A stretch of DNA of 64,000 nt from Fluviispira vulneris (lineage in GTDB: Bacteria; Bdellovibrionota_B; Oligoflexia; Silvanigrellales; Silvanigrellaceae). A model generated the notes under the pieces. That model worked only from the letters and a program-made list of their open reading frames with translations. It was not told the DNA's origin and searched no databases. Made by a program: the position numbers and the translations under genes. Shown here piece after piece: positions 33,785 through 46,090 of this stretch. How positions within the stretch are numbered: the first letter of the stretch is position 1; every line of letters begins with the position of its first letter. The stretch spans positions 124,001 through 188,000 of the forward strand of contig NZ_JACRSE010000004.1 in NCBI RefSeq assembly GCF_014281055.1, in the 5' to 3' direction.

Positions 33785-33859
33785 GGACCCATGGTGAAGT
33801 GGATATCACGTAGGCCTCCGAAGCCTGAAGCGCAAGTTCGATTCTTGCTGGGTCCGCCA
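33785..33859 (+). tRNA. tRNA-Arg (anticodon CCG)
   Basis: A full cloverleaf can be drawn: acceptor GGACCCA/TGGGTCC, D stem GTGA/TCAC, anticodon stem TAGGC/GCCTG with loop CTCCGAA (anticodon CCG), a 4-nt variable loop, T stem GCAAG/CTTGC with loop TTCGATT, discriminator G and encoded CCA. Its T-arm region (33835-33850) is repeated at 43186-43201, which marks it as the integration site of the neighbouring island. Confidence 0.95.
33835..33850 (+). repeat. attL-like core in tRNA-Arg
   Basis: AGTTCGATTCTTGCTG, covering the T loop and 3' T stem of tRNA-Arg. The identical 16-mer at 43186-43201 forms the other end of the island. Confidence 0.75.
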
Positions 33860-33919
33860 TAGAGTTATTCTTATTTTTCAAGTGTTTTTATCACCCAGTA
33901 AGATAGTCCCAAGGGTCTA

Positions 33920-34092
33920 GTCCCAATTTTTGCTTGGGACAGTCCAAATTTCTTAAATTTGAAAAAATTTGTGCATATCGAGTTCGGTTTTTTCTCGGCT
34001 TCATCGGCAAATGGCACTTTGTCTTACTCTCCGTAAGAAAAATGTGTGCCGAGAAGGTCTAAAATTTTCATCGGCACTCGCCGGCACGCCGG
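33920..34092. other. Cluster of stem-loops at the left island edge
   Basis: GTCCCAA/TTGGGAC (33920-33940); TTCTCGGC/GCCGAGAA enclosing GGCAC/GTGCC and TCTTAC/GTAAGA (33992-34055); then GCCGGC-AC-GCCGGC (34079-34092 region). The motif TTCATCGGCA occurs here twice and once more near 46199. No coding signal is seen; this could be a structured non-coding RNA or part of the recombination site. Confidence 0.35.
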
Positions 34093-34132
34093 CAAAACCT
34101 CCTCCTGACTAAGTCTGTTTTTTGAGCGTTAT

Positions 34133-34426
34133 TTAATTACATTTAAAAGTATATTGATATCTTCTAATTGGAATGGATTGTAAGTTTGCTGTTCCTGAGC
34201 CTGAATTATAAATATAAGCATATAAACCTTCAGCTGTTTCATTCATGTTAAGTAATTTAGCTTCTTTACCGCAATAATTATTTGCCTCCTTTTGATAATC
34301 ATCTATTGCCGCCCATTTTCCGCCTTGAACTGTTACTGTGTCAGCATCTTTATTAAATCCTACAATTCTTAAATGAGTACATGCTGAAAATAAAATAAAA
34401 GTACTTAAACACAATAGAATCCTCAT
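34133..34426 (-). CDS. Small lipoprotein, paralogue of 48498-48791
   Basis: A 97-residue lipoprotein: signal MRILLCLSTFILFSAC with a lipobox Cys at 16. The mature part VGFNKDADTVTVQGGKW, YCGKEAKLLNMNE and a C-terminal YQYTFKC ending match the paralogue at 48498-48791 along the whole length. Conserved Cys residues in NYCGK and FKC could form a disulfide. Family unknown. AAAGG lies about 8 nt before the ATG. It sits between tRNA-Arg and the integrase pseudogene. Confidence 0.7.
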   Translation of the reverse strand: MRILLCLSTFILFSACTHLRIVGFNKDADTVTVQGGKWAAIDDYQKEANNYCGKEAKLLNMNETAEGLYAYIYNSGSGTANLQSIPIRRYQYTFKCN

Positions 34427-34590
34427 ACAAAATGCCTTTCTTTCTCAGTTTTTGTGTACAAATTTATTTTTTAAAATTAAAATTCTTAAAGAAAGATATT
34501 TTGAATTAAAAACTCATCTTGAGAATTTTGGGAAATTTTTAAATTAATATTTATCTTAAAGAATAGAGTTGGAAATTTTAAGCCGTTTTT

Positions 34591-35748
34591 TTAAACAAGC
34601 AATTTATCAATACTAGAAGTGACTCCTGTTACAGGCAATTGCGTTGCATCAAAATAGACCGTCATCATATCTGCGGTTTTATGTCTTGCTATTTTTTGGA
34701 CTACTTGTAACGAATGCCCCGAACTCGCTAAAAATGTAATGGTTGTATGCCTTAAGCCATGCATACTGACATGGCGAATGCCTGCCTTCATAGATAAATT
34801 TGAAATTAACTTAGAAAACTCCAGTGGGTTTTTACTTGCTAAAGGAAATAAAGCAGCCGTTTTTTCAATGCTGTAACTTAAACTTTTCGATATGCTATGC
34901 AACTCAACTATTTTATTTCCAATGACATTCGACAATTCCACATGCCCATTAGAACCACATTTGGCATTGAGTTTTACCTCAAGGGTGCGATGGTTCATTG
35001 TTTTTTGGATGACAACAAATAAAGAAGCACTTCCTTGTGGATTGGTTTCTAAATACTCCAAATCACCCCATGTTAATGCGGCAACTTCTCCCATTCTCAA
35101 CCCAGTGTAAATTAAAAATTCAATAATGAACCCTGTCTGAAAGCTGGGCTCATATCCTTGCAATATGAGTTTTTTAGCTTCCTCTTTGGTTAATGCTTTC
35201 TTTTTTATGTTGGTTGAAAACTTTTGCTCTAAACGCTGGTGCTTAAAAAAACGAGCCATGTTCTGTACGACACGAGGTTCTTTGGCTGGGTTGGTTTGCA
35301 AATAATTTTTCAAACAACACCATTCAAAAAAAGTACTTAACGTACCAATGATGTTTCGGACCGTTTTAAGGGAACAAGCTTTTCCTCGGACCGTTTTTGT
35401 TTCAGCAAGCTTTATGGCAAAAGATAAAATTAAATTTTCATCAATTTCGGTAGGCTTTAAACTTCAAAACTCAGGTAATAAATATAACCTTACATTTTGT
35501 CAATAAATAAATATGGTTTGTAGAGAATAAAACCCAAATGAATTATTCAACCAACTATCAAATAACAATTCACACGTTGCAACTACAACCGAAGTTGGTT
35601 GTAACAACTGCGTTCGCCAAAAAATAGCATCGTCTTTATTTAAAAATGTTTTGGAATAATGTGAACCTTTAACAGCAGCTCTTGCTTCCCAATTGTTAAT
35701 ACGAGGGATAAAACGAATTCCAATTAAATTTGCTTGTTGTTTTGTCAT
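34591..35748 (-). pseudogene. Tyrosine recombinase (integrase), disrupted
   Basis: The C-terminal catalytic domain is complete (R in YTGLRMGEVAALTW, HGLRH, ARHKT and the nucleophile in MMTVYFD). The same frame is open upstream to about 35465 and reads as a core-binding domain (LKTVRNIIGTLSTFFEWC), with no ATG before a stop. The arm-binding N-terminus (WEARAAVKGSHYSKTFLNKDD) is in a separate frame at about 35500-35748 that ends early. The gene has therefore been broken within about 60 bp of the domain boundary. It is the relic of the enzyme that would have inserted the island at tRNA-Arg. Confidence 0.8.
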
Positions 35749-35973
35749 AATTAAAATGTCCTTTTGTTGAAAAAAAGACACCTCATTTTGAAAACAAACC
35801 TGTAAGTAAGCTTGTAATCTTGCTTACTTTATGTATTATTTAATTATCAAATAACGGCAAGTAATTTGATTTTAAGGGGAAGCACGAGCTATGTGTCTTC
35901 CTCTTTTTTTGTATCAAACCTGACGTTATTTTACATACAGGTCGGGGAAGATCAAATGGGGGAAGGAGATGGA

Positions 35974-36939
35974 ATGGAGAACTTTGTTACACCTAAAATA
36001 TTATATGATAGTATTTCAGATAAAAAATATTTAGAAAAAATTATTCAAAAAAATCAAAAAGAAGATCTTTATATAGAATATAAAGAAGCAAGTATATCAA
36101 GTGATTTAGAAAAATTAGGAAAAGCTCTAAGTGGTTTTGCAAATTCTGCGGGTGGAGTTTTAATTTTTAGAGTAAAAGAAGATAAGAAAAATAAATCATA
36201 TATTCTTGATCCTATTTCAGACATCAATACATTTCATCAAAAAATACTAGAGAATTTGAGTAGATTAGTAGCAAGCAATGTTCCTAATGTAGAGACAAAA
36301 AAAATTGATAAAGATAATGGATATATTATTGTATTAATTCTAAAATCAGATAACTCGCCTCATCAAAGATTAGAAGATAAAAAATATTATAGAAGATCGG
36401 GTGAGTCTTTTGTCCCTATGGAGCATTATGAATTAGAAAATATGTTTGGAAGAGCCCCAAAACCAATTTTAGAGGTAGATTTTAAAATCATAGAAAATGG
36501 TTGTGCTCCAGGTATTGAGCAAAGTTATAAAATAATAGTTGGCATTAGAAATAAAGGTAGAATAGCAGCGACTTTTCCTTATATTGGATTAAATATAAAT
36601 TCAAATTATAAAATTAATTCTTATGAACTAAATGGAAACGGAACTCCAGGTCTACCTAAATTAGCTTCATCTACACGCGGTATTAGTAACAATATTGAAT
36701 ATAGAGGAGACGGTAATTATATAATTTATCCTGATCTTTTTTTAGAAGTAACCGCATTTGATTTGAAAAAGAATTTAAAGAGCAATTTGTATTATCAAAA
36801 TTCTGATCTGAATGTTGATATCAAAATTGCTTCAAAAGAATCAAGATTGATATTAAATAATTTTAACTTGTCACATTCAGACTTTGAGAAAATGTTACAT
36901 GAAAATAAGTTTTATAGTAAAGCTCTTAATTTAGGATGA
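35974..36939 (+). CDS. AlbA_2/Schlafen-like domain protein of the ABC-3C operon
   Basis: A 321-residue protein. The AlbA_2 (Schlafen-type) domain lies in the first half: DLYIEYKEASISSDLEKLGKALSGFANSAGG, seen as YIEYKEA, GKALSGFANSAGG and VLIFRVKED, then KKYYRRSGESFVPM. The C-terminal half is beta-rich and unclassified. ATG 35974 is chosen because AAGGAG stands five bases before it; the frame is open further upstream with another ATG at 35956. Only 4 bp separate it from the next gene. Such domains occur as regulators or RNA-cleaving effectors in conflict systems; which applies here is not known. Confidence 0.75.
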   Translation: MENFVTPKILYDSISDKKYLEKIIQKNQKEDLYIEYKEASISSDLEKLGKALSGFANSAGGVLIFRVKEDKKNKSYILDPISDINTFHQKILENLSRLVASNVPNVETKKIDKDNGYIIVLILKSDNSPHQRLEDKKYYRRSGESFVPMEHYELENMFGRAPKPILEVDFKIIENGCAPGIEQSYKIIVGIRNKGRIAATFPYIGLNINSNYKINSYELNGNGTPGLPKLASSTRGISNNIEYRGDGNYIIYPDLFLEVTAFDLKKNLKSNLYYQNSDLNVDIKIASKESRLILNNFNLSHSDFEKMLHENKFYSKALNLG

Positions 36940-36943
36940 TAAA

Positions 36944-38050
36944 ATGAATAAAATTATTAATGATGCTTCGGCTTCAATGAAGGGAACAATATATCAATTT
37001 TATGTCGCATTAGAAAGATGTTTTTTGCTAGAAAGTGGACAAAAATTGTGGATAGAAAAATTTGGTGATGTTACTGTTTCAGGGGAAATTCAAATTGAAA
37101 CCAAGCATTACAAAGGTTATCTTAACGATCTTCATAGAAATTTTTGGAATACACTAGCAAATTGGATGGATAAATCGTTCAATCACATACCATATAAAGA
37201 ATTAGTGTTGTACACTACACAAGATATAAATAAAAAAAGTAAATTATATAATTGGAATAAATCAAGCGCTGAAGAAAAATTATGTATAATAAAAGAAATA
37301 ATTAATACTTTTCAAAAAAATGATTTAGAAATTACCAAAAGTAATGAAGAGAGACAAAAAATTTTACTACATGGAGATGACTTTCTTTTAAATATTTTAA
37401 AAAAAGTATATATATCATATAATTCACCTGATATTATTAAAATTGAGAAAAAAATAATAGAGGTTCATGCTAAATTTATTTCTGAATCAAAAAAAATAGA
37501 TTTTATTCATGGATTGATAGGTTTTATTATAAATTCATGTAGATATGATAATAACTGGGAAATTACATTTGATAAATTTGAAGAAAAAGTAAGATCATTA
37601 GCAAACCATTTTAGCAAAAATATAATCAAGATACCAGAAATTAAAAGTTATATTCCTAAAGATGTAGAATACTGTGAGGATAAATTATTTATAAAAAAAA
37701 TAACTGAAATTAAGTATGAGGATGTTAAAGCAGAAGCTTTCAGAGATTATTCATGTCTTAAAAATTTTATATACATTGAATTTAAAAATTGTGAAATTGA
37801 AATGGAAGAATTTAAAATTTATTATAATAATTTGAAACGTATTTTTATATCAAAGCATCGTGGGTGTGCCTTGGATCTTAGTAATGATGTGATAAAAGAT
37901 TCACAAAGATTTTTTAATAAAATTACTGAGTCGGAACCAGAAAGATTAAGTAATTTTGGTATAGTACCAATCGAAATTAGAAATGGTATTTTTCATGATT
38001 TGCTAGATATTGAAAAAAATAATTTAAAATGGAAGTTAAAAGATGAATGA
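36944..38050 (+). CDS. ABC-3C effector-type protein with nuclease-like N-terminus
   Basis: A 368-residue protein. The N-terminus GTIYQFYVALERCFLLE, IEKFGDVTVSGEIQIETKHY and NFWNTLANWM match the DUF4297/Cap4-like restriction-endonuclease fold, with candidate active-site residues E38, D42, E52 and K54. The C-terminal part fits the ABC-three-component C-terminal domain (ending FGIVPIEIRNGIFHDLLD). In described ABC-3C systems such a protein is the effector linked to a middle component and an ABC ATPase, exactly the genes that follow. It overlaps the next gene by 8 bp. Nuclease activity is inferred from motifs only. Confidence 0.7.
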   Translation: MNKIINDASASMKGTIYQFYVALERCFLLESGQKLWIEKFGDVTVSGEIQIETKHYKGYLNDLHRNFWNTLANWMDKSFNHIPYKELVLYTTQDINKKSKLYNWNKSSAEEKLCIIKEIINTFQKNDLEITKSNEERQKILLHGDDFLLNILKKVYISYNSPDIIKIEKKIIEVHAKFISESKKIDFIHGLIGFIINSCRYDNNWEITFDKFEEKVRSLANHFSKNIIKIPEIKSYIPKDVEYCEDKLFIKKITEIKYEDVKAEAFRDYSCLKNFIYIEFKNCEIEMEEFKIYYNNLKRIFISKHRGCALDLSNDVIKDSQRFFNKITESEPERLSNFGIVPIEIRNGIFHDLLDIEKNNLKWKLKDE

Positions 38051-38510
38051 TTTTTTACTATTAAAAAATTTAGATATTTTATCAAAAAATCCAATATTAT
38101 TATCACTCGTTATAGATAATTTCTATAAATTTTCTATAAGGAAAGAAAAAAATATTTTATTAGTATATCTAATTATTCCCTTGGTATTAAGTGAAAATAC
38201 AAGATTATCTCTTTGTAATTCAAAAGCAACTAGTTCTTTATTTACTTTTTGTGGAAATAATAATAATATAAGTATGCTTCAAAATAAAATATTAAATCAA
38301 AAAAATTTATCAATTAAATCTTTGTATGTATCTTTGAGTTCAAAAAGATTAAAACTAAATGATGACTTATCTATTGATTTCATAAAAGAAAATGAACAAA
38401 TTAATAATATATATTTGGAAGAAAAAAAAGCTGCTAAAAAATTAGCTTTTTTACTTAATTCTTTTGATGTTAATACTATATATAGAATATTTGGAGTCAA
38501 ATTTATATGA
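38043..38510 (+). CDS. ABC-3C middle component
   Basis: A 155-residue protein with the pattern of the three-component ABC system middle component: LSKNPILLSLVIDNFYKFS at the start, a central LLVYLIIPLVLSENTRLSL and a C-terminal KLAFLLNSFDVNTIYRIFGV. It presumably bridges the nuclease-like effector and the ATPase. It overlaps both neighbours (8 bp and 4 bp), so the three are translationally coupled. Very AT-rich. Confidence 0.72.
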   Translation: MNDFLLLKNLDILSKNPILLSLVIDNFYKFSIRKEKNILLVYLIIPLVLSENTRLSLCNSKATSSLFTFCGNNNNISMLQNKILNQKNLSIKSLYVSLSSKRLKLNDDLSIDFIKENEQINNIYLEEKKAAKKLAFLLNSFDVNTIYRIFGVKFI

Positions 38511-40504
38511 TATGTTTTATAAAATATATTGGTATATTAGATAATAATGATAAAAAGCATTATGTAGAATTAAAGCAAGGTTTAAATATTATAACAGGCA
38601 AGTCATCTACAGGAAAAAGTGCGATTTTAGAAATTTTTGATTACTGTTTTGGAAGTAATTCGTTTACGATCCCTGAAGGAATTATTAGAGAAAAAGCAAA
38701 CTATTACTTTTTAATATTGCAATTTTCTTCATTTTATCTTGTGATAGGAAGAAATGAGTATGAAAAAAGCTGTTATATCATAGAATTCAATATTAAGTCA
38801 TGCGATAATATAATTCATATGATAAGTAAAAATTTATTTGATAAAAAAAATAAATTATCAATTGATAATTTTAAAAAAGAACTTGGTAAATATTTTGGAA
38901 TTAATTATACTATTGTTGAAGAAGATTATGCTGATTATTTATTTAGAAAACGTAAAAAACCCACACCTTCTGTAAGAAGTTTTTCGTCATTTATTTTACA
39001 ACATCAAAATTTAGTAGCAAATAAACACGCTCTTTTTTTTCGTTTCGATGAAAAAGAAAAAAAAGAGCAAGTGATAGATCACTTTAAAATATTTTTAGGA
39101 ATAGTAGATCAAGAATATTTTATTTATTTAATGAAAATTGAAGAAATAAAAAAGGATATTAAATCAATTAATTATGAAATGAATAAAAATAAGTTAATCT
39201 TTGAAAAGAATAAGATGAAGCTTAAAGAACTAACTGATAATTATACATCAATAACAGGAACGAAACTATTTAATGCTTCTAACGATGAAATTGCAAATAA
39301 TCCAAATAAATATCTAGAAAATATTGACATAATTAGTATTACTTTAAAACCATCAGAAACTAATTATGCTAAGGAAGTTGAACAATTAGAACAGGAAATT
39401 ACATCCTTGCATTTTAGAATTAGAAAATTAGGAAATCAGAAAATTAAAATAGAATCTTCTGTAAGAAATTCAAAGAATTTTACAGAAAATATATATAATT
39501 CACCTATAAATCAACCATTAGAGCATGAATCGAGTTCGTATGCATGTCCATTTTGTTTTAAGGAATCAAACATTATAGAAAATGAAAGTAATAAATTAAT
39601 AGATGCTATTAATTGGCTAAATAATGATCTAAAATATTCATATTATATGCAAACTGCTTTTAATGAGGAAATATATAAAATAGAAAATCAAATCAAAGAA
39701 TTAAAAAAAAATTTAATAGTTAAAGAAAATTGTTTGGATGAAATTAAAAAACAAGATGAAAAATTAGAAAAGAATGTATCAATTTCAAATATTGCTTTAA
39801 AATATAAGCTAAAAATAGAAATTATTTTAGAAAGTTTTATGATAAATGATAATATATATCTTTTAACTAAAAAAGAAAAATTAGAAAATAATTTAAAAAC
39901 ATTAGAAAATAATTTAAAAAAATATAGTATTGATAAAGAAGTTTATGAAATAACAAGAAATATTGAGAATTATATGAAAGAAATTGGAGAAAATTTTGAG
40001 TTTGAATCATATTTTAAACCAATTAATCTTAAGTTTTCTTTAGATAATTTTGATCTTTATCATGAAGGAAAAAATGGGCGAACTTATCTTAGGTCAATGG
40101 GTAGCGGTGCAAATTGGTTGTACTGTCATCTTACTTTATTTTTAGCTTTACAACGTTTGTTCTGTGAAAGAAGTAATAGAGGATGTTTAATTCCTCCTAT
40201 TCTTTTTTTAGATCAGCCTACTCAAGTTTATTTTCCTACAACAATTGAAGATCAAAATTCTGAATTTAATCCAAATATTATAGCTGAAAAAATTGGAAGA
40301 AAAGATAGATTAGATGAAGACATAAAATCTGTTACTAATTTATTTAAACAATTAATTTATTTTTGCAAAAAAACTGAAAAAATAACAAAAGTTATGCCTC
40401 AAATTATTGTAACAGATCATGCTGATAATTTAGATTTGGGAGAATCTTTGGATTTTAATTCATACGTTCGAGCTAGATGGAGGTCAAACGGGTTTATTAA
40501 TTAA
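38507..40504 (+). CDS. ABC-3C ATPase, DUF3732/SMC-like
   Basis: A 665-residue SMC/Rad50-like ATPase with DUF3732. Walker A GKSSTGKS is at 31-38. Long coiled coils around 205-330 and 370-490 flank a zinc-hook-like CPFC at 347-350. The C-terminal half contains YLRSMGSGANWLYCHL (signature region), the Walker B variant ILFLDQPTQVYFP with Gln after Asp, and a final IIVTDHADNLDL. This is the sensor/motor type found in ABC-3C anti-phage-like operons. Starts ATGA-overlapped with the middle component; last gene of the operon. Confidence 0.82.
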   Translation: MICFIKYIGILDNNDKKHYVELKQGLNIITGKSSTGKSAILEIFDYCFGSNSFTIPEGIIREKANYYFLILQFSSFYLVIGRNEYEKSCYIIEFNIKSCDNIIHMISKNLFDKKNKLSIDNFKKELGKYFGINYTIVEEDYADYLFRKRKKPTPSVRSFSSFILQHQNLVANKHALFFRFDEKEKKEQVIDHFKIFLGIVDQEYFIYLMKIEEIKKDIKSINYEMNKNKLIFEKNKMKLKELTDNYTSITGTKLFNASNDEIANNPNKYLENIDIISITLKPSETNYAKEVEQLEQEITSLHFRIRKLGNQKIKIESSVRNSKNFTENIYNSPINQPLEHESSSYACPFCFKESNIIENESNKLIDAINWLNNDLKYSYYMQTAFNEEIYKIENQIKELKKNLIVKENCLDEIKKQDEKLEKNVSISNIALKYKLKIEIILESFMINDNIYLLTKKEKLENNLKTLENNLKKYSIDKEVYEITRNIENYMKEIGENFEFESYFKPINLKFSLDNFDLYHEGKNGRTYLRSMGSGANWLYCHLTLFLALQRLFCERSNRGCLIPPILFLDQPTQVYFPTTIEDQNSEFNPNIIAEKIGRKDRLDEDIKSVTNLFKQLIYFCKKTEKITKVMPQIIVTDHADNLDLGESLDFNSYVRARWRSNGFIN

Positions 40505-41016
40505 ATTATAAGATCAGGTTAAATGCAAAATTCTGATAGACTAAAAATTTTAAAAATTGAATATAATGCTAGTTATGATTTGATAAAAGTAAAGCGAGGT
40601 TTGAAGAAATAGCTTCAATTTGTTAAATAATTTTTGCGAAAAAAAGTAACAAAGGAGATACCAATGTATTGTCAGAACCAACTTATAACCGCTTGCATTA
40701 CTTCCTGAAATTTCTTTTCTCAACTTTCTCCCTATATTTTTTTAAAATATGTCCAAACTCAAATCCCTCGTTTACTGATAAAGAAACTTTCACAATTTAC
40801 TTCTTTGGAAATTTAAATGTAAGCGCAACAATCAAACCATCTAATCAAAAAAATAAGATTGAGTTAAAACTTCTTTTTTAAATTGATCATAACCCCCATT
40901 TCAAGTTGACACTTTTTCACTAAGAAAAAGGGGGTTTATGATCAAATACTTGTAATTATGAATTTAAAATAAAATTATTTTAAATATTTAAATTCTAAAA
41001 TTTTAGGATTACTCTC
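40505..41016. other. Intergenic region with a large inverted repeat
   Basis: No convincing gene. A 29-codon frame at 40523-40612 (+) follows AGG and could be a small peptide gene. AAAGGAGAT before ATG 40663 leads only to a 14-codon frame. An inverted repeat at 40883-40945 has arms TTGATCATAACCCCC and GGGGGTTTATGATCAA (one unpaired base) with a 32-nt loop; it stands between the convergent ABC-3C and AbiE operons and may act as a terminator or be an IS relic. Confidence 0.5.
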
Positions 41017-41949
41017 TTATTTTTCAAGCTCGCTTTTTAATTTTAGTAAATATTTACTATATTTCTCTTTTTTCATTGCTTGTATATTTTTTAATTTCCA
41101 TTTGATAGCAGGAAAATTTTCTAAATTTTTGAAAGGTAATAAATTCCAATTAGGCTCTAAAGTGTAAAATGAATAAATAAAATCCCTATGGATATTGCTT
41201 AAATTATTATTTATTTCTTTTATTAATTTTTCCCTTGTTTCATTTAATTGATTCCAAGTTATGTTTTCTTCCGAAATTCCCGAAAATTCATTTGCAAATA
41301 ATTGTTCCTGATTTAGTTTGGTAGGGTTTAAAAGTTCATCAGGAGGTCTATTGTGTTGCATTAATATAACTACAAAGCAATCTATTAGTAATTTCGAAAT
41401 CTTTTCATTTTCTAAAAAAATTTTAACATCAAAAAGGTCCCTAGGGTGTTGTCTATCAAGAGCTGCGCAAAATTTTCCAGCATATATTTCTTCTAAAGAT
41501 AACAATCTCATTTCTGCGTCCATTCCAAAATTTTCACTAGCTTTTTTACATATTCTATGATCTTGATATGGCAATAAATTTCCACGTATAATTTCATTCG
41601 GTTCTATTTTTATGGCTGCTTTATTTGAATAGACATTTAGCTTTCTGTATCTGTTATCTTTAGAAATAATTGGATTAACTCTTATAACATCAGCATTATT
41701 TAATAATCTATTCTCTATATTTTTTAAACTATTGCTTATCCCTTCTAATGATGATTCTCTATCGCCTATTTGTAGCCAGGTTAAATCAATATCTACTGAC
41801 AATCTTGGTAAGTTTCTAATAAAGAGATTTATTGCAGTTCCTCCTTTTAGAGCAAAATTATTTTCTTTATAAATAATTGGAAGACATTTAATTAGAAGTT
41901 TAACCTGCTCTTCAAAAATGAAACTATTCATAGTTAACCTCTTGATCAA
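41017..41949 (-). CDS. AbiEii-type nucleotidyltransferase toxin
   Basis: Type IV/VII-like toxin of the AbiE system, 310 residues. The nucleotidyltransferase core is clear: ALKGGTAINLFIRNL followed by RLSVDIDLTW, giving the GG and DxD metal-site signature. AEMRLLSLEEIYAGKFCAALDRQHPRDLFD corresponds to the second conserved block (LSLEEIYAGKFCAALDR). AbiEii-like enzymes act on tRNA or nucleotides to arrest growth and abort phage infection. The gene overlaps the antitoxin gene by 26 bp, so the two are coupled. Confidence 0.88.
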   Translation of the reverse strand: MIKRLTMNSFIFEEQVKLLIKCLPIIYKENNFALKGGTAINLFIRNLPRLSVDIDLTWLQIGDRESSLEGISNSLKNIENRLLNNADVIRVNPIISKDNRYRKLNVYSNKAAIKIEPNEIIRGNLLPYQDHRICKKASENFGMDAEMRLLSLEEIYAGKFCAALDRQHPRDLFDVKIFLENEKISKLLIDCFVVILMQHNRPPDELLNPTKLNQEQLFANEFSGISEENITWNQLNETREKLIKEINNNLSNIHRDFIYSFYTLEPNWNLLPFKNLENFPAIKWKLKNIQAMKKEKYSKYLLKLKSELEK

Positions 41950-42730
41950 TTAATTCCTTAGGCACTGTAATTAGATATTTAGAATTAAAAATTCCATTTT
42001 TTTCGATTACTCTTTTTCCTTTTCCAAGTTCTACTTTGCTAGTATTAATTTTAGAAAACCATTTATGATTATTGAGTTCTGCTAAAAAAAGGAAAATTCT
42101 TTTTGCTTTAATTGAAGTACAATTTTCTAAAAGATTTTGTACTAATTCAGGCCTTAGAGTTGTTAAAGATGTAAATATTTCTGCGGTTTCTTGGAATGAA
42201 TATTGCGAAGGTATTCTATACATCATTTCAATAATTGCTCTTTCTGGTGTAGATAAAATGAGTTCTAAGTTGTTAATTTTAATTTTGGTAAGGCTACTTA
42301 CCTCAGTTTTTTTAAAAATATTTGTAGAATAAGTTTTTATTGTCGAGTTAAATTTAAGTTTAAATATCCATTTAGGTAAAAAATTATTCTCTGGGACTAT
42401 AATTGATATTGTCTGTTTATTTAAAGGCAAATAATGAGCGTATCCAAGCAACTCAAGAGCGCTTTTGCTGCCAACATGGATCATTAAATTTAGTTGAGAT
42501 TGTAAAGCCCAAGTAGCCCCTTGCCATGTAATTTCATCTTGATAGCGTAAAAATATCCCTTTTGCAGGTGATTTTAGCCATTTAGAATTTATATACTTTT
42601 GAATAAGTTCATACGGATAACCATTTTCAGTAAGCCATGATGAAACATATAGAGCATTTGCTGGCCAGTTTAAAAGAAGCTTTTGCAATGAGCTTTTGTT
42701 TTCCTCTGTTTCTAAGGATTTTGAAGTCAT
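41924..42730 (-). CDS. AbiEi-type antitoxin and autorepressor
   Basis: Antitoxin of the AbiE pair, 268 residues. The N-terminus is a winged-helix region (LYVSSWLTENGYPYELIQKY, WLKSPAKGIFLRYQDE), followed by the AbiEi domain (HVGSKSALELLGYAHYLPL, STPERAIIEMMYRIP). ATG 42730 is preferred because GAGGG lies five bases before it; a TTG four codons upstream is possible. Known AbiEi proteins bind inverted repeats to repress their own promoter, and two large perfect dyads lie just upstream here. Confidence 0.85.
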   Translation of the reverse strand: MTSKSLETEENKSSLQKLLLNWPANALYVSSWLTENGYPYELIQKYINSKWLKSPAKGIFLRYQDEITWQGATWALQSQLNLMIHVGSKSALELLGYAHYLPLNKQTISIIVPENNFLPKWIFKLKFNSTIKTYSTNIFKKTEVSSLTKIKINNLELILSTPERAIIEMMYRIPSQYSFQETAEIFTSLTTLRPELVQNLLENCTSIKAKRIFLFLAELNNHKWFSKINTSKVELGKGKRVIEKNGIFNSKYLITVPKELIDQEVNYE

Positions 42731-42755
42731 AAAGTCCCTCAAAGTAGGTAAGTTA

Positions 42756-42814
42756 AGTTTAACTTTTAAGCTATAACTATACTTATGGTATAGTTATAGC
42801 TTAAAAGTTAAACT
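42756..42814. promoter_or_regulatory. 59-bp perfect dyad 1 upstream of abiEi
   Basis: Arms of 27 bp (42756-42782 and 42788-42814), with no mismatch, around the 5-nt centre TTATG. The outer part begins AGTTTAACTTTTAAG. It ends 25 bp before the abiEi start codon. Probable operator of the AbiEi repressor; as RNA it would also form a long hairpin in the leader. Confidence 0.75.
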
Positions 42815-42897
42815 ATTGATAGAAAGTTCTCTAATTTTTAGCTATTTAATATAATACTCTGAGATAATTGATTAGTTAAAGACTGGAAGGAAAATTA

Positions 42898-42956
42898 GGT
42901 TTAAGTTTTTAGCTATATCTATACCATGAGTATAGATATAGCTAAAAACTTAAACC
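42898..42956. promoter_or_regulatory. 59-bp perfect dyad 2 upstream of abiEi
   Basis: Arms of 27 bp (42898-42924 and 42930-42956), no mismatch, centre CATGA. The arm matches dyad 1 at 23 of 27 positions, and all four differences are compensated in the opposite arm. Its centre is 142 bp from that of dyad 1. Confidence 0.75.
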
Positions 42957-43185
42957 AGTATAAACGCATAATGATTTATACAAATACCCCTCTTCTCCCC
43001 CCCAACCATCTACCGATCATGCCGAGAAGAATTGCTATACTCACAAAAAAATTTTTTTTCCAGTCCCAATTCCATTGCTTTACGTTTGTGCAGATCTGTT
43101 ACAAGTAAGAGGTGTTGTTGTTGATAATAAAAGATATTTATTTTTAAGGTTTTTTACCATCTTAAGGAACGCTTAAGCTAAGGCC

Positions 43186-43201
43186 AGTTCGATTCTTGCT
43201 G
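43186..43201 (+). repeat. attR-like core
   Basis: AGTTCGATTCTTGCTG, identical to 33835-33850 in tRNA-Arg. The flanking bases (GGCC before, AATT after) do not continue the tRNA, as expected for the far end of an inserted element. The 42957-43358 stretch around it holds no recognisable gene. Confidence 0.75.
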
Positions 43202-43358
43202 AATTAACTTTTTCATTATTGTTGTTTTTTTATTTGGGAACGTTACTGCAACAGAATTTACGAACAGGGAATAATGAAGAATTTTGGTAGAATTTTATAG
43301 CATCTAGACAAAGCATCTTCACGCCCGTAAACTTTAAGAAAATAGGAGGCACGTAACC

Positions 43359-43838
43359 ATGTCCAAAATATATGCTTGCATCTGGTCAAATGACAAAGCT
43401 GCGGAAATGGCCAAATTCTACAAGTCTGTCTTCAAAGGAACAAAGATCGGTAAGACTTCTTACTGGGGCAGCAACCCCATGGGAGTCAAAGAGGGTTCCG
43501 TACTGACCATACATCTCACCCTTCTAGGCCAAAAAATTATGCTCCTGAACGGATACACCGAGATGAATTTCAACGAGTCCATTTCGTTCGTCGTGCCCTG
43601 CAAGACTCAGCGGGAGATCGACACGTACTGGAAAAAGCTGACAAGTGATGGAGGCCAACCTGTGCAATGCGGTTGGCTGATCGACAAGTACGGAATTCGG
43701 TGGCAGATCACACCAGCAGAATTCGACAAGTGGAACACAAGCAAGAACAAGAAGAAGAAGGAAGCAGTCATGCACGCGATGTGGAAGATGGTCAAACTAG
43801 ACAGAAATAAACTGAAGGAAGCTTTTGATCGCACTTAA
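43359..43838 (+). CDS. PhnB-like VOC protein, GC-richer than surroundings
   Basis: A 159-residue protein of the 3-demethylubiquinone methyltransferase-like (PhnB) VOC group: IYACIWSNDKAAEMAKFYKSVF at the start (shown as MAKFYKSVFKGTKIG), LNGYTEMNFNESISFVVPC, then GGQPVQCGWLIDKYGIRWQITP. The C-terminus is Lys-rich. Codons use many C/G third positions, unlike any neighbour, so a recent transfer from a higher-GC genome is likely. AGGAGG lies 9 nt before ATG. It sits just outside the right island repeat. Substrate unknown. Confidence 0.8.
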   Translation: MSKIYACIWSNDKAAEMAKFYKSVFKGTKIGKTSYWGSNPMGVKEGSVLTIHLTLLGQKIMLLNGYTEMNFNESISFVVPCKTQREIDTYWKKLTSDGGQPVQCGWLIDKYGIRWQITPAEFDKWNTSKNKKKKEAVMHAMWKMVKLDRNKLKEAFDRT

Positions 43839-44083
43839 CTTAGGCATGCAAAGTAACTATCTTATACTTAGAAATGTTTCTTGATTCATTTTTAAATTAA
43901 GCATCGTGAGCAAGGACATGAATTATAAAGTAATTTTACACAAAATAGAAAAAAATGTAATGAATTATTCTTAAAAGATTTCATGAAAAGAGTTTAAGGG
44001 TAGGCATTAGAAGAAAGTCATATAACAGACTCTATTGGTATTTAACAGATCACAAGATATCCATAAAAACTTTTTAATTTTCT
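43839..44083. other. Non-coding stretch before the IS element
   Basis: No open frame, promoter or repeat of note was found between the VOC gene and the IS605 left end. Confidence 0.5.
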
Positions 44084-44096
44084 TTGAACAGAGCAA

Positions 44097-44134
44097 GGCC
44101 GCATTCTCGCTCCTTTAGGGGCGAGAATGCGGCC
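44097..44134. repeat. IS605 left-end hairpin
   Basis: 17-bp arms (44097-44113 and 44118-44134) with one mismatch, G-T in one orientation, and loop TTTA. Inner part CTCGCTCC-TTTA-GGGGCGAG matches the right end. Subterminal hairpins of this sort are recognised by Y1 transposases. Confidence 0.7.
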
Positions 44135-44164
44135 GATTGATCCATTGTCGGCGAAGAGGACGAG

Positions 44165-44199
44165 GAATTAAAAAAACACGTGAGTGGCTTTTTTAATTC
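44165..44199 (-). terminator. Terminator of tnpA
   Basis: Stem GAATTAAAAAA/TTTTTTAATTC with inner CAC/GTG, just beyond the tnpA stop. On the minus strand the CAC-GTG core is followed by seven T. Confidence 0.6.
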
Positions 44200-44201
44200 T
44201 A

Positions 44202-44678
44202 TTAGTCCGCTCGCAACCGTACTTTTCTTTCACGAATAGATTGAGCAACGCCTTTTTCAGTAAATGGTTTTCTTTGGTCATCAATATATTTTTTTATAAT
44301 TTCTAGCGGTGCTCCTCCACAAGTTACAGAACAATAACTTGGACTCCAAAAATTGTCACCCCATAATTTTTTCTTAATAAGTTCCCAAAATTCTCTTCTT
44401 ATAAAATAAGAAGATTTTCCTTTTAATTTACTGGCAACAATTGCAACAGAGTGTTTTGGGGGAATGCTAACAAGTATGAGCACGTGATCATCTTCGCCAT
44501 TAAATTCGATTAATTCGCAGTCTATTTGCTCGCAATTTTCTTTAAAAATAAGTCTAGTACATTCAAGAATTTCCTTTGTAAAAATTCCCCGTATATATTA
44601 AGTAACGAATACTAAATGATAATAATGTTTATATAGTTGACTTCTTCCTGTTCTCCACTCATATTTATTATGATCCAT
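44202..44678 (-). pseudogene. tnpA: IS200/IS605 transposase TnpA (Y1), inactivated
   Basis: A 158-codon frame starting at ATG 44678 reads MDHNKYEWRTGRSQLYKHYY, then HLVFVT, a TAA stop (44598-44600) where the family has Lys, then YIRGIFTKEILECTRLIFKE and on to the family C-terminus. The HUH motif normally written HVHL is HVLI (in GEDDHVLILVS), so the second metal-binding His is lost too. The catalytic Tyr region IIKKYIDDQ is kept. The two independent lesions argue for a dead gene rather than a sequencing error. Confidence 0.85.
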
Positions 44679-44725
44679 ATTGATTCCAAAATAAACAAAT
44701 GCTAGAGAAACATGATGAAGAATTT

Positions 44726-46090
44726 ATGGCAAGTTGTGTTGTAAAATTTAGAGCATATCCAACTATTGAGCAAGCAAATATACTTTCTCGATGGATAGGT
44801 TGTGCTCGAGTTATTTATAATTGCAAAGTGTCAGAAGATAATCAAAATTATAGCGTATTTAAAAGCACAGGCGAAAAATCCTCGGTTCATCAGGCTTATT
44901 CACATTTTAAAACTGAAGAAAGAGATTGGCTAAATCAATGCCCGTCGCAAATTCTGCGCAATGCATCTTCAATTTGGTATACGGCAAAACAACGTTTCTT
45001 TAAAGGTATAGCTAAAAACCCTCGTAAAAAGAAAAAAGGAATAAAAGATACCGTCTTGCTTACGAATGAATTATTTAAATTCAATGATGAAATAAGCAAA
45101 GAAGGAGTTGTTTTAAAAAAACTAATAATTGGCACTAAATCAAAAGAATTAGGTGTTTTAAAATTCAAGGCTCATAGAGAGTTTGGAATTCCGCAACAAA
45201 TTGTTATTGGAAAAAAGAATAATAAGTGGTTTGTCTCGTTTTGCTATGAAGTAGAAGATATTGGAAAATCAGAACAAGATCTGTTGGATGAATATTCTCT
45301 TTTGGATGCAGAATCATTAAATGAACTCACCGTAGGGATTGATCGTGGCATTGTAATTCCATTTCAAACAAGCAATAAACTAAGTTATGATTTTGATGAT
45401 AAATCAAAAAATAAAATCAAGCTTAAACAAAGAAAGTTCAAAAAATATCAAAGAAAGTTATCACGGCAAAAAAAAGGTTCAAATTGTAGAAATAAAACTA
45501 AAATTAAAATTGCAAAAATTCATTCTAAAATAAGTAACATCAGGCATGATTTTTGCCACAAATTTTCTCATTCAATTGTTAATTCAGACGCAAAAATATT
45601 TGCAGTAGAAGATTTAAAACTAAAAAATATGACTAAATCTCCTAAGCCAAAGCAAGATGTAAATGGCAAATATTTGCCAAACATGCGAAAAGCCAAAGCA
45701 GGTTTAAATAGAGAACTGCTATCAAAAGGATTAGCAAAAACAATAGAGTTTTTAGAATATAAAGCTAAAAAATATGGTAAATTAGTCGTTAAAGTTTCAC
45801 CTCATTATTCTAGTCAGGAATGTGCCAATTGTGGCCACACTCACGCCGAAAATAGAAAAACACAAGATAATTTCTTATGTTTATTATGCGGAAATCATGA
45901 CAATGCTGATATAAATGCAGCAAAAATAATTGCTAAAAGAGGTGTGCAATTTCTTTTGTCAAAGCCAAAAGCTAAGACAAGAACTAGGCTAGGGACTAGC
46001 CGAAGTAAAGCTGGACGAGGAATAAGTAAGACGAAATTAGAGCAATCTAATCCGCTGATTCCTATAACTTCAGAAGCTTGCTCCCTTTAG
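44726..46090 (+). CDS. tnpB: TnpB, RNA-guided nuclease of the IS605 element
   Basis: RuvC-type nuclease ancestral to Cas12, guided by an RNA from the element's right end. About 454 residues. The RuvC acidic residues are present: Asp in TVGIDRGIVIPF, Glu in FAVEDLKLKNM and Asp in HDNADINAAKII. The zinc finger CANCGHTHAENRKT...CLLCG is intact. ATG 44726 gives the family start (CVVKFRAYPTIEQANIL); the frame is open with another ATG at 44699. The stop codon lies inside the right-end hairpin, so the guide-RNA scaffold would overlap the last codons. It appears functional although tnpA is dead. Confidence 0.88.
   Translation: MASCVVKFRAYPTIEQANILSRWIGCARVIYNCKVSEDNQNYSVFKSTGEKSSVHQAYSHFKTEERDWLNQCPSQILRNASSIWYTAKQRFFKGIAKNPRKKKKGIKDTVLLTNELFKFNDEISKEGVVLKKLIIGTKSKELGVLKFKAHREFGIPQQIVIGKKNNKWFVSFCYEVEDIGKSEQDLLDEYSLLDAESLNELTVGIDRGIVIPFQTSNKLSYDFDDKSKNKIKLKQRKFKKYQRKLSRQKKGSNCRNKTKIKIAKIHSKISNIRHDFCHKFSHSIVNSDAKIFAVEDLKLKNMTKSPKPKQDVNGKYLPNMRKAKAGLNRELLSKGLAKTIEFLEYKAKKYGKLVVKVSPHYSSQECANCGHTHAENRKTQDNFLCLLCGNHDNADINAAKIIAKRGVQFLLSKPKAKTRTRLGTSRSKAGRGISKTKLEQSNPLIPITSEACSL

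Follow-up and report, generated by a model that had tools for sequence, protein, structure and literature searches.

The two 59-bp dyads upstream of abiEi, D1 and D2, are very probably operators through which AbiEi represses its own abiE genes. This assignment derives from comparison with the leaders of related abiE loci and from the predicted fold of the AbiEi protein, and was made in a window of 64 kb, the whole stretch of Fluviispira vulneris DNA that was analysed (Table 1). Each dyad consists of two inverted half-sites, with an RGTTTRA sequence at the outer end and a locus-specific CTATAC core at the inner end.

Table 1. Position of the predicted operators, the abiE genes and associated signals in the window
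Feature	Position	Strand	Description
Dyad D1	42756..42814	-	predicted 59-bp AbiEi operator; arms perfect over 27 bp; CATAA at the centre (gene sense)
Dyad D2	42898..42956	+	second predicted 59-bp operator; D1 half-site altered at 4 mirrored places; CATGA at the centre
Spacer between operators D1 and D2	42815..42897	.	83 bp
Candidate abiE promoter TTAACT-17-TATTAT	42851..42879	-	consensus match; between D1 and D2
Putative Shine-Dalgarno GAGGGA	42735..42740	-	sequence; 4 nt before ATG at 42730
abiEi antitoxin/autorepressor	41924..42730	-	ATG start; 268 aa; AbiEi_3_N + AbiEi_3
abiEii nucleotidyltransferase toxin	41017..41949	-	overlaps abiEi end; PF08843, PADLOC

A sequence-only reading of this stretch had described two perfect 59-bp dyads with 27-bp arms and 5-bp centres, and the coordinates and pairing proved to be exactly as claimed. 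Arm complementarity is 100% (27/27) in both D1 (arms 42756-42782 and 42788-42814) and D2 (arms 42898-42924 and 42930-42956). The four arm differences that it had reported were located at positions 1, 8, 12 and 21; every one is mirrored by the complementary change in the partner arm, giving four mirrored and no unmirrored differences. The two centres differ by a single base and lie in opposite orientations, and the whole 201 bp therefore form a larger inverted repeat whose 57-nt arms are 88% alike. The separation of 142 bp given earlier is correct as a centre-to-centre distance, the gap itself being 83 bp.

By a simple dyad score, D1 and D2 (27 each) are by far the strongest dyads of the 64-kb window, the runner-up reaching 15. 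Their half-site, with up to three mismatches allowed, is present at these four places alone in the 3.6-Mb genome. A genome search with the pattern RGTTTRA-N45-TYAAACY returned D1, D2 and one more, asymmetric site, and the reversed control pattern gave two matches per strand; a wider AbiEi regulon is thus not indicated. Within the spacer, 11 bp of the arm (TTTTTAGCTAT) occur again, alone, at 42836-42847, and this copy may be a decayed half-site or a chance match.

The genes downstream mark the locus as a predicted AbiE type IV toxin-antitoxin system, with an antitoxin that has both expected domains and an overlapping nucleotidyltransferase gene, abiEii. AbiEi combines PF11459 and PF17194, i.e. 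a winged-helix N-terminal domain and the AbiEi C-terminal domain (PADLOC AbiEi, 9.6e-81), and AbiEii matches PF08843 (1.3e-34; PADLOC AbiEii, 5.7e-106). The TTG listed as the start of abiEi is probably incorrect, with translation beginning instead at the ATG at 42730, which would place the end of D1 25 nt before the start codon. The true start of abiEii is probably the ATG at 41931.

An AlphaFold2 model of AbiEi was generated using only window and genome-search sequences as input (mean pLDDT 88, pTM 0.84). Its significant matches in the PDB were 1ZEL (Rv2827c, the top match) and 6Y8Q (Streptococcus agalactiae AbiEi), and these only; searches of the PDB by sequence, with AbiEi or its profile as query, found nothing significant, and no close relative of the protein turned up in the scans made for one. 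Both fold matches are repressors shown by experiment to bind repeats of this kind, which supports the reading of the dyads as sites where AbiEi would bind and repress.

To compare the leader with those of other abiE loci, AbiEi relatives (∼28-39% identity to the window protein) were drawn from plasmids and from 58 genomes within the same phylum. A 7-mer search for inverted GGTTTRA pairs, with one mismatch allowed, found pairs at exactly 59 bp in 6/26 discovery loci (the next commonest span occurred in 3) and in 3/16 hold-out loci, where shuffled sequences averaged 0.07 and 0.017, respectively; among the loci with such a pair, L029 and L043 are near-duplicates. With a leave-one-out matrix of nine operators, many loci gave a site at about -102 to -120 from AbiEi residue 15, and L007, L008 and L017 gave tandem sites 62 bp apart.

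Because circularity had to be avoided, a matrix was also built from D1 and D2 alone and applied to 40 relatives, near-duplicates being left out, at a threshold of P<=0.05. Using the outer 7 bp, 19/40 relatives matched at a span of 59, compared with 1-7 at the other spans tried (53, 55, 57, 58, 60, 61, 63 and 65). Using the full arms, the corresponding figures were 15 and 5-10, with the best sites at consistent positions before abiEi. A significant 59-bp site was absent in about half of the relatives examined, and short spans dominated a motif-free span test. The count of 19/40 at this span points to 59 bp as the standard span for the operators of this AbiEi subfamily, D1 and D2 among them.

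What the comparison with relatives shows is operator identity, span, half-site and position. It had been proposed beforehand as a check on the link between the dyads and AbiEi, and it supports that link: 59-bp sites with ends of the D1/D2 type precede abiEi in those 19 relatives, and the inverted half-sites upstream of abiEi share half-site, span and position with them. The dyads had also been called unusually long, a description that must be dropped, since 59 bp is the subfamily standard and the repeat pairs of Rv2827c also total 59 bp (PMC7319586).

The operators of the relatives have a distinctive anatomy. Their ends are nearly invariant (RGTTTRA), and the inner seven positions vary among loci yet are symmetric within each locus, at 0.65 compared with 0.36 for re-paired halves; when halves were swapped between loci, 0/2000 permutations reached the observed within-locus symmetry. 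The simplest reading is that the outer part of the operator would be contacted by conserved residues and that the inner part would set the specificity of each AbiEi. Within a locus the core also repeats 60-68 bp downstream (mean 12.26/19 vs 9.49 for permuted cores, P<0.0002), over the promoter or the start codon, often the start codon, and this suggests that many relatives have a second operator lying across the translation start as well. In L007, L008 and L017 a good promoter overlies the second operator: its -35, TTGAC(A/T), falls inside the GGTTTGAC/AGTTTGAC end and its -10 at the operator's centre. In L024, L025, L035 and L042 the core recurs around the abiEi start codon, as with ACCATGAGT in L024.

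Several features set the present locus apart. D1 and D2 are identical at 50/59 positions, and the paired operators of relatives at 24-39, so that one dyad looks to be a recent copy of the other, in either direction, unless both have been kept alike. D1 lies where the operator of relatives lies, and D2 is additional, 142 bp upstream. The usual downstream core repeat is missing here (9/19, no better than the cores of other loci), and the core has an upstream copy at 16/19; in none of the 23 other loci does an upstream repeat of the core go beyond 12/19. Since D2 is without a counterpart in relatives, its predicted operator role derives from its similarity to D1 only.

The arms of both dyads are symmetric at 27/27 positions, compared with 12-22/27 in the predicted operators of relatives, and the origin of this perfection can be explained in two ways that are each compatible with the operator reading. 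The sequence-only reading held that the symmetry itself is under selection, which would mean that the AbiEi of this locus depends on both operators having identical half-sites. The mirrored changes on which it drew are confirmed, and the within-locus symmetry of inner cores in relatives points the same way. The step from mirrored changes to selection is weakened, as the dyads of relatives are imperfect and perfect symmetry therefore need not be selected. Moreover, template switching at quasi-palindromes makes inverted repeats more perfect and produces mirrored changes without selection (PMC7202029), accounting for them equally well. Selection is thus a tenable but tentative explanation, to which we give somewhat less than even weight. 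The perfect symmetry would most likely have arisen when template switching perfected a quasi-palindromic operator, whether or not selection for tight binding also played a part, and these dyads offer a natural case for separating symmetry selection from palindrome-perfecting mutation.

With regard to mechanism, we infer two-molecule occupancy, promoter position, the mode of repression and any looping. Two AbiEi molecules would presumably occupy the half-sites of each dyad through their winged-helix N-terminal domains, and AbiEi on D1, D2 or both would switch abiE transcription off, either by covering the promoter or, if the promoter lies between the dyads, by blocking elongation. Contact between the D1- and D2-bound complexes may aid repression, and a fall in the AbiEi level would release abiE expression. 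The best-scoring candidate promoter on the abiE strand is TTAACT-17-TATTAT, although the number of such matches in this AT-rich stretch is not above that in shuffles, and weak candidates lie both inside D1 and in the spacer.

A narrower version of the operator reading has AbiEi bound to both dyads and closing a repression loop that encloses a promoter between them, for which the E. coli gal operon is the comparison case. Two near-identical operators do flank the best-scoring promoter candidate, and C-terminal contacts between AbiEi monomers have been proposed for S. agalactiae (PMC7319586). However, a promoter match of this quality is expected by chance, the 142 bp correspond to ∼13.5 turns at 10.5 bp/turn, such that the operators may face opposite sides, the two cores of relatives are 60-68 bp apart, and a literature search for abiE together with DNA looping gave nothing. 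The loop is therefore considered unlikely, if worth keeping in view; if true, with near-identical, perfectly symmetric sites maintained together, it would represent AbiE autoregulation at a distance and a new arrangement.

Two further explanations would dispense with the operators. The dyads might be RNA hairpins in the abiE leader, acting in RNase III processing or translational control, and D1, if transcribed, would indeed form a 27-bp hairpin (-38.9 kcal/mol for a 121-nt stretch, z -7.1). A hairpin leader RNA, raised as an option in the earlier reading, is nevertheless not favoured. It is the end sequences and not full pairing that are conserved in relatives, and the non-Watson-Crick symmetric pairs there comprise 39 G-U and 36 A-C; this lack of a G-U excess is what is expected of a DNA site and not of an RNA stem. 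No terminator-like T run is present, which also rules out an intrinsic terminator, and on these grounds the hairpin explanation is judged improbable. That the dyads are mobile palindromes, or a small inverted-repeat element with no tie to abiE, would fit the inverted-repeat structure of the 201-bp region and the presence of IS200/IS605 genes nearby. Copies elsewhere in the genome, which the sequence-only reading had named as the result that would speak against its own interpretation, were looked for and no other copy was found. Against the genus, the 201-bp stretch gave short AT-rich chance matches only; the inner dyad pattern had no match in viral or GTDB collections, and a DNA search of plasmids and phages with the abiE leader had none either. 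Furthermore, the half-sites and spacing of D1 and D2 recur before abiEi in relatives, and a mobile origin has scarcely any probability left.

The operator-bearing leader lies in an island-like region (33785-46090) beside tRNA-Arg, where GC falls to 23% around 36-40 kb; a tRNA was the sole match of an Rfam search. The island holds, in order, tyrosine recombinase pieces, a Lamassu-like LmuB/ABC-3C gene set, abiE and IS200/IS605 genes. The gene set (36944-40504) is a candidate defence system composed of a 368-aa protein with no match in the families searched, the ABC-3C middle component MC3 and an LmuB/DUF3732 ATPase (PADLOC LmuB, 1.8e-106). At 44202-46090, an IS200-like transposase covering profile positions 55-121 of 121 (second half only) is divergent from a 463-aa TnpB. 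Two strong hairpins (44097-44134 and 44165-44199) adjoin the end of the IS200-like tnpA and may mark where an IS200/IS605 element ends.

The most useful result is the operator rule for AbiEi_3: RGTTTRA ends exactly 59 bp apart, and a symmetric, locus-specific core that recurs within the locus. It allows operators to be predicted in many abiE systems that are still uncharacterised and gives an indication of where the specificity of the repressor resides, in a large subfamily for which sequence search found no solved structure.

Among the AbiEi_3 loci themselves, L007, L008, L017, L024, L025, L029, L035 and L043 share with D1 and D2 the RGTTTRA ends, the 59-bp span and the position. L007, L008 and L017 carry two sites, as this locus does, but the second site or core of AbiEi_3 loci is 60-68 bp downstream, whereas here it is 142 bp upstream. 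The abiE locus of S. agalactiae also has inverted repeats upstream of abiEi and an abiEi-abiEii overlap (PMC3985639). The AbiEi-bound repeats there overlap the promoter and mediate autorepression, the operator being 23-N3-23 with the -35, TTGCTT, inside IR1 (PMC3985639); the overlay of promoter and operator in L007, L008 and L017 is of the same kind. In this comparison the half-site TGTTGCTTTTA resembles AGTTTAACTTTTA. S. agalactiae differs in having one 49-bp operator with four mismatches in place of two perfect 59-bp dyads. A further parallel is Mycobacterium tuberculosis Rv2827c-Rv2826c, whose antitoxin is the top structural match to the AbiEi model yet is not matched by sequence search. 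Rv2827c binds repeats and represses its own promoter through two pairs of 23-13-23 separated by a 4-bp gap (PMC7319586). Both systems thus place two 59-bp operators (23+13+23 in M. tuberculosis) upstream of an antitoxin of AbiEi fold, but the gap is 83 bp here, and the repeats are imperfect in M. tuberculosis and perfect in F. vulneris.
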